A DNA stretch of 32,022 bases from Chlorobiota bacterium. GTDB lineage: Bacteria; Bacteroidota; Chlorobiia; Chlorobiales; Chlorobiaceae. Below the pieces are notes generated by a model. The model was not told the origin of the DNA and did not search any database. It saw only the letters and a list, made by a program, of their open reading frames with translations. Below are positions 30,418-32,022 of this stretch, in pieces (position 1 is the first letter of the stretch; each line of letters starts with the position of its first letter). The DNA lies in assembly GCA_016868665.1 (NCBI GenBank), contig VGGK01000024.1, positions 1 to 32,022 on the forward strand. Reading direction: 5' to 3'. The position numbers and the translations under genes were made by a program.

Positions 30418-31248
30418 ATGAGTTTAGTCTTAGCGGTGTACGGCAAGGGAGGTATCGGCAAGAGCACGACCAGCGCCAATATATCCGCAGCCCTGGCCCT
30501 CAAGGGAGCCAAGGTACTGCAGATCGGCTGCGACCCCAAGCACGACAGCACCTTTCCCATTACCGGCAAGCTCCAGAAAACCGTGATCGAAGCGCTCGAA
30601 GAGGTTGATTTCCATCACGAAGATCTCACTGCCGAAGATATCATCGAAACCGGTTATGCCGGTATCGACGGCCTCGAAGCCGGCGGCCCACCCGCAGGAA
30701 GCGGCTGCGGAGGCTATGTCGTAGGCGAATCGGTCACCCTTCTCCAGGAGCTTGGTCTCTACGACAAGTACGACGTCATCCTCTTCGACGTGCTCGGCGA
30801 CGTGGTCTGCGGCGGATTCAGTGCACCGCTCAACTATGCAGACTACGCCATCATTATCGCTACCAACGACTTCGACAGCATCTTTGCCGCCAACCGCCTC
30901 TGCATGGCCATTCAGCAGAAAAGCGTCCGCTACAAGGTCAAGCTGGCCGGCATCGTAGCCAACAGGGTAGACTACGCCAAAGGCGGAGGCACAAACATGC
31001 TCGACCAGTTCGCCGAAAAGGTCGGAACCAGGCTGCTCGCCAAAGTACCCTATCACGAACTGATCCGCAGGAGCCGGTTTGCCGGAAAAACCCTCTTCGC
31101 CATGGACGACAGCGAAGAAGGAAAGGAAGAGTGCCTGCAGCCATACCTTCAGATTGCCGAAGACATTCTCTCCGAAAACCCGAAATCCTCGGTGCCTGTA
31201 CCAATCGGCGACCGCGAGATATTCGAAATCGTCGGCGGCTGGCAGTAA
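30418..31248 (+). CDS. bchL: Light-independent protochlorophyllide reductase ATP-binding protein BchL
   Basis: BchL is the NifH-like homodimeric ATPase that delivers electrons to BchNB. The 276-residue product has the P-loop GKGGIGKST at residues 9-17, CDPKHDST at 38-45, and the two cysteines that bridge the 4Fe-4S cluster: Cys97 (GSGCGGYVV) and Cys131 ([16 protein letters not shown]). The open frame continues upstream into bchB, but the ATG at 30418, followed by [11 protein letters not shown], is the family start. It is separated from bchB by 34 bp and followed by an intrinsic terminator. Confidence 0.98.
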
Positions 31249-31281: not shown

Positions 31282-31300
31282 CGGGCAGGTGCCCGTTTTT
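31282..31300 (+). terminator. Intrinsic terminator after bchL
   Basis: CGGGC (31282-31286) pairs with GCCCG (31291-31295) around the loop AGGT, followed directly by five T residues and a further T-rich stretch (GTGCTTTT). It starts 33 bp after the bchL stop codon and separates the bch operon from the repeat region. Confidence 0.75.
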
Positions 31301-31323
31301 GTGCTTTTAAGGGCGCAGGTGAA

Positions 31324-31356
31324 TGGGACATATGGGACTGATGGGACGAATGAGAC
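31324..31356 (+). repeat. Degenerate 9-bp-period array, TGGGAC orientation
   Basis: TGGGACATA, TGGGACTGA, TGGGACGAA and TGAGAC succeed one another with an exact 9-bp period. The hexamer TGGGAC is kept in three units and changed by one base in the fourth, while the three-base spacers vary. This is the reverse-complement motif of the perfect array at 31411-31448. Confidence 0.85.
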
Positions 31357-31410
31357 AAGAGAAAAAGAATAAAATACTTGCATAGTTCGCAAACACTGTC
31401 TTTATTCTTT

Positions 31411-31448
31411 CATAAGTCCCATAAGTCCCATAAGTCCCATAAGTCCCA
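31411..31448 (+). repeat. Perfect 9-bp tandem array (CATAAGTCC)4 plus two bases
   Basis: CATAAGTCC occurs four times without change at 31411-31446, followed by CA, so that GTCCC recurs every nine bases at 31416, 31425, 31434 and 31443. It faces the degenerate TGGGAC array at 31324-31356; 31416-31448 can pair with that array at about 28 of 33 positions around a loop of about 59 nt. In one frame the array would read as repeated His-Lys-Ser, but the downstream gene more likely starts after it. Confidence 0.95.
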
Positions 31449-31461
31449 GACACGATGCCTC

Positions 31462-32016
31462 ATGACCAAGATCATCCTGCCTCACGGGGGTTACCGGGAA
31501 CTCCTGTCTTACCGGAAATCCGAAATAGTCTATGACATCACGTGTCGGTTCTGCCAGCGGTTTATCAGCAGGGGAGACCGTACTGTCGATCAGATGGTAC
31601 AGGCTGCGCGATCAGGCAAGCAGAACATCGCCGAGGGCAGTCAGGCTGCCGGGACATCGAAAGAGACTGAAATCAAACTGACCAGCGTAGCCAGGGCGAG
31701 CCTTGAAGAGCTTCTTCAGGACTACTATGACTATCTGCGAGTGCATGGATTTTCGGTTTGGGAAAAACAGTCGCCTGAAGCGCTCTATGTGAGAAAAATT
31801 GCAAGCGGTCCAAAAGTGACTTATGAGGCATTTCGGGAATTCGTTGAAACCCGTTCTGCAGAAGTGATTGCAAATATTGCCATCTGCCTCATTCATCAGA
31901 CCAACTACCTTCTTGATCGGCAAATACAAAAGCTTGAAAAGGATTTTCTCAAAGAAGGAGGAATCCGGGAGCGGATGACCCAGGCCCGTCTGCAGGCAAG
32001 AAGTCGGGGGAGATAG
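31462..32016 (+). CDS. Four-helix-bundle protein with 'suffix' domain (S23/Avd-like superfamily)
   Basis: The 184-residue product starts MTKIILPHGGYRELLSYRKSEIVYDITCRFCQRFI and carries the four-helix hallmark QMVQAARSGKQNIAEGSQA followed by KLTSVARASLEELLQDYYDYLR. After a variable stretch comes IANIAICLIHQTNYLLDRQIQKLEKDFLKEGGIRERMTQARLQARSRG, which resembles the 'four helix bundle suffix' family (TIGR04258 from memory). Related small proteins include the spirochaete 23S rRNA intervening-sequence protein and Avd of diversity-generating retroelements. No reverse transcriptase is present here and the function is unknown. The frame is open back to 31378 through the repeat array; the ATG at 31462 is preferred because homology starts there. 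Confidence 0.85.
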   Translation: MTKIILPHGGYRELLSYRKSEIVYDITCRFCQRFISRGDRTVDQMVQAARSGKQNIAEGSQAAGTSKETEIKLTSVARASLEELLQDYYDYLRVHGFSVWEKQSPEALYVRKIASGPKVTYEAFREFVETRSAEVIANIAICLIHQTNYLLDRQIQKLEKDFLKEGGIRERMTQARLQARSRGR

Positions 32017-32022
32017 ATCGAG

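Follow-up and report, generated by a model that had tools for sequence, protein, structure and literature searches.

The window analysed here is a 32,022-nucleotide stretch of DNA from a Chlorobiota bacterium of the Chlorobiaceae (assembly GCA_016868665.1), and it constitutes the complete contig VGGK01000024.1 (C24). Near its right-hand end lies a gene for a four-helix-bundle protein carrying a C-terminal suffix domain, and immediately upstream of the gene are two facing arrays of a tandemly repeated six-base word. This gene and its arrays are the subject of the present study. The features of the locus are as follows.

31324..31356, plus strand: array U+, four TGGGAC(N3) units with a 9-bp period, the last unit being TGAGAC
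31411..31448, minus strand: array U−, (CATAAGTCC)4.2, four perfect minus-strand TGGGAC units
31315..31458, plus strand: long imperfect hairpin of the facing arrays and their spacer, 53 pairs in the minimum-free-energy RNA structure, z −9.2
31321..31448, plus strand: hairpin copy 1 of a direct repeat; copy 2 lies outside the window (contig C85, 128-259) and is 92.4% identical
31462..32016, plus strand: four-helix-bundle protein with C-terminal suffix domain, 184 amino acids, TIGR02436 and TIGR04258, S23/Avd fold
31858..32004, plus strand: suffix domain TIGR04258, profile match
31896..32022, plus strand: exact overlap (127 bp, 100%) with the start of contig C85, which carries the locus on
30418..31248, plus strand: bchL, the upstream neighbour, recognised from its sequence and with an inferred start
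31282..31309, plus strand: terminator-like CGGGCA-GG-TGCCCG with a T-rich tail, between bchL and the arrays, found by eye

Array U+ contains three exact TGGGAC units and one unit with a mismatch, separated by ATA, TGA and GAA, and the 4.2 copies of U− match one another at 100%. An initial annotation of this DNA had described two oppositely oriented arrays of common 9-bp period, some 28 of 33 positions paired between them, and a gene starting 13 bp after the second array. All of this was confirmed: the ATG lies at 31462, 13 bp past U−, the stop codon ends at 32016, and in the RNA fold of 31315-31461 exactly 28 of the 33 U+ positions are paired, every one with U−. The predicted energy of this fold is −59.8 kcal/mol, compared with a mean of −27.8 for shuffled sequences (z −9.2), and a DNA fold of the hairpin is of similar strength. 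Three identical 6-mers at a spacing of 9 occur within the window solely at U+ and U−, and 60 first-order Markov windows contained no such place. An Rfam scan gave no rRNA match; a known RNA family was rejected for the hairpin, for which the only matches were sub-threshold ones to plant microRNAs, typical of any long hairpin. The terminator-like hairpin falls below the thresholds of the scanner used, and GC-rich counterparts follow bchL in relatives.

The window protein scores 95.3 bits against TIGR04258 (4helix_suffix; cut-off 40), 29.6 bits against TIGR02436 (cut-off 24) and 27.8 bits against PF05635, under the cut-off of 33.8. Its AlphaFold model is all-helical and confident (predicted local distance difference test score 91.9), and fold comparison of the model gave Z values of 16.0 to 2gsc, 13.7 to 2rld, a protein of the S23 family, and, for Avd, 11.8 in the diversity-generating retroelement (DGR) ribonucleoprotein (8ub7, 8ub8) and 11.4 to 4dwl. 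Because helical bundles reach Z values of ∼13 by chance, according to the tool's own note, the Avd match leans also on the kinship of S23 and Avd, which was already known. The membership of the four-helix superfamily given in the initial annotation stands. A search of PDB sequences returned only a weak match to 2gsc (E 0.26), and Foldseek alone returned nothing at E≤0.001. A known defence gene was rejected, the PADLOC matches being weak (E 0.003-0.006), as was a viral origin of the gene, since a pattern search of IMG/VR returned no relative with the suffix, though a few viral contigs do carry arrays. Among these contigs (L375-L508), TGGGACx4 was seen in 54 stretches and GTGGACx4 in 116.

The locus continues on contig C85, and the 127-bp overlap is of the kind that an assembler with k=127 would leave. 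After the overlap, C85 contains a second copy of the hairpin in the same orientation (92.4% identical over 132 bp), followed by a convergent alpha-amylase-like gene, and the window gene is therefore bracketed by two direct hairpin copies. The join of the two contigs is based on the overlap and on synteny, with no spanning read, and is independently supported by gene order in a genome of the same genus (G295). At the same site G295 has bchL, a terminator-like hairpin and one TGGGAC/GTCCCA hairpin of at least eight GTCCCATAA units, with no four-helix gene; the amylase gene, common with the window locus, lies ∼310 bp downstream. This one-hairpin allele aligns with the upstream hairpin of the window and its flank (79%) and with the downstream hairpin (83%). 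Judged from these alignments, the difference between the two genomes is best fitted by the gain or loss of exactly the gene and one hairpin. The unit of one hairpin plus gene in the initial annotation is therefore replaced by a gene between two direct hairpin copies. Elsewhere in the genus the equivalent site holds the gene (G024), a remnant of it (G252), decayed hairpins (G056, G149), TAGGAC-type arrays (G145, G181, G225) or nothing recognisable (G015, G090). In the genome of the window itself, two further contigs (C81 and C67; L039/L040) carry ∼90%-identical versions of one region, and the assembly may combine two strains. Each version contains a suffix gene in decay, and C81 has facing GTCGAC/GTTGAC repeats as well.

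The association of 9-bp arrays with suffix genes was surveyed twice. Within the phylum, 49 of 394 genomes have TIGR04258, and the first survey covered 84 Chlorobi/Bacteroidetes loci (80 with flanks of up to 9 kb and four from the genome of the window) using Tandem Repeats Finder. Period-9 arrays were concentrated within 1 kb of the suffix domain (73 of 133), and no such concentration was found for periods 7, 8, 11 and 12. Exact 6-mer pairs near the suffix gene were enriched 4.7-fold at spacing 9 and 2.9-fold at spacing 10, compared with 0.9-1.2-fold at spacings 7, 8, 11 and 12. The second survey used an independent set of 80 relatives, whose best segments are 56-73% identical, drawn from over a dozen phylum-level groups, including Planctomycetes, Verrucomicrobia, Lentisphaerae, Nitrospirae, Acidobacteria, Desulfobacteria and Gammaproteobacteria. 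It repeated the enrichment, with 79 of 122 period-9 arrays near the suffix domain; at least one record (L157 = L077) is common to both surveys. Arrays are thus enriched near homologous genes, which the initial annotation had proposed to check, and the module is not specific to the bch operon, at the end of which that annotation had placed it. In the direction of the gene the common layout is a GGAC array, a GTCC array, the gene, a GGAC array and a GTCC array, and many loci are partial. Facing arrays across the loci usually consist of three to five short words, and the number of units per array peaks at four (24 arrays of three units, 48 of four and 5 of five). In some suffix clades arrays are found also inside the coding linker that joins the bundle and the suffix.

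As a control, 30 suffix-less four-helix genes from the same superfamily were used. Only 1 of these 30 loci has a period-9 array, compared with 48 of 84 and 49 of 80 suffix loci. The plain loci have arrays of their own, with a period of 7 (24-39-fold enriched) or 8 (39-49-fold) and nothing beyond background at periods 5, 6 and 9-11, and these arrays are in plus sense 5′ of the gene and in minus sense 3′ of it. Even within the genome of the window, the plain four-helix gene (contig C41, L237) has 7-bp arrays and the window gene 9-bp arrays. The period therefore goes with the protein subfamily, a relation termed here the period code. Individual plain TIGR02436 genes (L236-L305, for example L237, L246, L266 and L270) are enclosed by facing period-7 or period-8 arrays, the array ends of L270 being complementary at 22 of 22 positions, and some lie within operons, the gene that follows being apparently nuoD or one for a thiolase, as judged by the first residues.

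The word also matches the protein clade, with a six-base core that reads TRGGAC in the clade of the window and ARGGAC, NYGGAC and TCNGAC in others. On a tree of 43 labelled proteins with 16 words, 18 word changes are required compared with 29.9 for shuffled labels, and none of 200 shuffles was as low. The clade of the window protein has mostly T[GA]GGAC words, together with TAAGAC and GGGGAC, and A[AG]GGAC and near variants are the words of its sister clade, to which a gammaproteobacterium and deltaproteobacteria belong. The EGGFTERL clade has GTGGAC, ATGGAC, TTGGAC or, at a 10-bp period, ACGGAC, and a clade with a topoisomerase zinc ribbon (PF01396) has TCNGAC words. Moreover, similarity between the two ends of a locus is far greater than between ends of different loci, with observed means above all 2,000 permutations; at plain genes the ends correspond as inverted repeats, and at suffix genes as inverted and direct repeats alike. 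Word and spacing follow the protein subfamily, and from these sequence comparisons protein and repeat look like partners. In the zinc-ribbon clade (L107, L108, L137, L155 and, in the genome of the window, contig C30/L037) the suffix protein is fused to a topoisomerase-type C4 zinc ribbon, and TCNGAC-type arrays occur in the coding linker too. Three loci of the 10-bp-period clade (L142, L136, L110) likewise have ACGGAC-type words within the linker of the gene.

Arrays are also found as solo copies, with up to 56 matches per genome, mostly in intergenic gaps distant from any four-helix gene, and their presence depends on the gene family. Among 198 sampled genomes, 7 contain TGGGACx3 arrays, and all 7 have TIGR04258 (p=1e-6) and a gene of the window clade (p=2e-11, the clade having been assigned by us from best profile matches), while GTGGACx3 arrays occur in 19 of 394 genomes, 18 of which have TIGR04258 (p=4e-17), although these p-values overstate the association because related genomes are not independent. 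Within one genus (g2) carriers of the gene have 0-56 GTGGACx3 matches and non-carriers 0, 1, 0, 0 and 0, and within another (g1) such arrays occur in 4 of 21 genomes with the gene compared with 0 of 44 without. Outside this phylum, too, these words are found largely together with the matching clade, apart from a few crossovers. The initial annotation had held that arrays scattered without any link to the family would speak against its proposal; dispersed solo arrays do exist, but are nearly confined to genomes that carry the gene family. In two genomes, solo arrays are conserved at three orthologous places (L313/L329, L321/L335 and L334/L308). In L334 and L308 a GTGGAC array faces a TGGGAC array in a mixed solo hairpin at the same site, and thus words of two clades meet in one place. 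Elsewhere in the genome of the window, a solo array on contig C17 (L043, 3569-3673) has grown to 12 perfect TGGGAC units. A contig of a Planctomycetaceae genome (G394, C63, 20-52 kb; L370/L371) is prophage-like, with matches to a terminase (E 6e-104) and a head maturation protease (E 9e-79). Many of its intergenic gaps contain TGGGAC arrays, alone or facing one another, and at least 12 of the 15 TGGGACx3 matches of that genome lie on it. This may reflect either build-up of arrays in phage DNA or their use by the phage.

Several known systems resemble the window locus in part. In repetitive extragenic palindrome (REP)/REP-associated tyrosine transposase (RAYT) systems a gene is bracketed by hairpin repeats, and solo hairpins are dispersed in genomes that carry the gene. 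The window locus has hairpin repeats beside its gene and dispersed solo copies in the genome, but its protein is a helix bundle rather than a Y1 (HUH) tyrosine transposase and its hairpins are arrays of a 9-bp-spaced word rather than a REP palindrome. Like the solo long terminal repeats (LTRs) of LTR retrotransposons, the same site has either a gene between two direct repeats or one repeat alone, but there are no retroviral-type proteins and the repeats are 130-bp hairpins. The likeness to Avd is one of fold, with sequence similarity only distant; no RVT_1 match to a DGR partner reverse transcriptase (RT) was found on C24 or C85, the matches in the same genome being on C23, C1 and C4, and no DGR template or variable repeat was recognised beside the gene, though no search was aimed at them. 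The 23S rRNA intervening sequences (IVSs) contain open reading frames (ORFs) bordered by inverted repeats that are cut by RNase III; they are horizontally acquired and dispensable, their origin is unexplained, and mobility has been proposed for them (PMC4990558). They have in common with the window element the S23 protein superfamily (PF05635/TIGR02436) and an ORF between complementary repeats. Unlike them, the window element lies outside rRNA, between bchL and the alpha-amylase-like gene, and has tandem short-word arrays of subfamily-specific period at its ends, a suffix domain and dispersed solo arrays. REP/RAYT systems and IVSs are set apart from the element since a defining feature of each was looked for and found absent. 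Heptamer arrays such as TAACTGA, described from Beggiatoaceae, Cyanobacteria and some Bacteroidetes, are short intergenic direct repeats of 2-6 copies near start codons that are patchy and apparently horizontally spread (PMC4679880). A 7-bp period was also found here at plain four-helix loci, and the paper links no four-helix gene to them, such terms being absent from it.

We propose that the window locus probably belongs to a class of gene-plus-cognate-array elements not described before, in which a small S23/Avd-fold protein is bracketed by recognition arrays. The best reading of these comparisons is that the element would work somewhat like REP/RAYT or solo LTRs while belonging to neither, and it appears to be spreading. 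The arrays would be recognition sites of the bracketed protein or its close kin, an oligomer of which may bind an array such that each six-base word with its three-base spacer forms one subsite. The protein could hold folded or single-stranded array DNA, or an array transcript, and thereby promote copying or recombination of arrays, by which hairpins would spread as solo copies. Gain or loss of the gene may take place between two direct copies of the hairpin, with one hairpin left behind, and the cutting or copying enzyme is presumably provided by the host. The initial annotation had suggested that the array, as RNA or DNA, is the ligand or target of the adjacent protein. Given the enrichment of arrays beside homologues and the tracking of protein clade by unit, this is now the leading inference, but the RNA form gains no preference: mismatches in the arms, read on the sense strand, comprise 68 G·U and 79 A·C at suffix loci and 70 and 90 at plain loci. 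With no G·U excess, nothing favours an RNA hairpin over DNA, and sense-RNA pairing is not supported as a selected feature. A resident RT was rejected as the mover. RVT_1 was not found in several array-rich genomes, including G366 (84% complete), G402, G418 and G193, nor in the complete G052 and G063, and thus a resident RT is no consistent partner, although RTs lost later or missing from drafts remain compatible with these absences.

A number of points weigh against the proposed element, beyond the relatedness of the sampled genomes. Array binding and movement are both inferred, and no target-site duplication could be defined. Domain scans of the window protein found the four-helix and suffix domains only and no enzymatic domain; for the plain loci, inverted ends are present and no transposase was recognised in the element. 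At the thresholds applied, arrays went undetected at about 40% of suffix loci. Conversely, arrays occur without a detected intact cognate gene in G295 (85% complete) and G110 (one array). G378 has arrays with only a zinc-ribbon-clade gene found, at 9% contamination, and G052 and G063 have GTGGAC arrays with the GTGGAC-type gene only as a relic with stop codons.

The arrays could instead be purely regulatory, cis-acting RNA or operator elements by which the adjacent gene regulates itself, with no mobility. The great stability of the predicted hairpin, the position of arrays just 5′ of start codons and 3′ of stops, and the place of Avd-type proteins in an RNA-RT complex (8ub7 and others) would all suit such a role. 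It is nevertheless unlikely, as it leaves aside arrays at both ends of the gene and solo arrays, up to 56 matches per genome, far from any four-helix gene, and the arm mismatches lack a G·U bias on the sense strand. That last observation also counts against an IVS-like RNA element, in which the arrays would form a stem around the ORF, be excised from transcripts by RNase III and spread by rare insertion. Here the common superfamily, the resemblance to RNase III-cut IVSs with their proposed mobility, and the plain genes lying between plus and minus arrays as terminal inverted repeats, some of them inside operons, argue in favour; the position of the window locus outside rRNA and the frequent presence of a hairpin at each end of suffix loci, rather than one enclosing stem, make this explanation slightly more doubtful again.

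Some arrays have clearly been expanded by slippage (12 perfect units on C17 and at least 8 in G295), which would be expected of ordinary simple-sequence repeats arising between genes, the four-helix gene having simply landed among them or been tolerated nearby. This explanation is very improbable: it is strongly disfavoured by the period code, both period and word depending on the protein subfamily, unit number peaks at four with no decay, the arrays face each other, and their presence in genomes depends on the gene. Chance or a generic microsatellite was rejected by the period tests and the control-gene tests. We also consider it improbable that the protein binds DNA as a host factor related to the chromosome or to phage, with the arrays as its operator network, kept for benefit rather than by selfish spread. 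The conservation of solo arrays at orthologous places in two genomes and the prophage contig with arrays in many intergenic gaps are consistent with such a network, but the patchy distribution of the gene and its loss leaving a hairpin suggest dispensability, and 73% protein identity across different phyla suggests horizontal spread.

Beyond the window element, it is possible, though we advance this tentatively, that the whole S23/IVP/Avd-fold superfamily reads short tandem arrays by a code in which the period (7, 8, 9 or 10 bp) and the word are set by the subfamily, and that it causes arrays to spread in trans while having no enzymatic domain itself. The 23S rRNA IVSs and the unexplained heptamer arrays would then be branches of one system. 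Searches of open-licence full texts found no paper that ties four-helix genes to arrays, and part of this may be known to the curators of TIGR04258 and TIGR02436. Thousands of genes annotated as 'four helix bundle protein / S23' gain a candidate partner, and an explanation would be available for at least part of the short tandem arrays dispersed in bacterial genomes. The old question of whether and how the ORFs of 23S IVSs move becomes directly testable, each clade now offering a protein together with the word and spacing predicted for it. If binding is confirmed, these families would amount to a natural collection of small helical proteins whose sequence code can be read.
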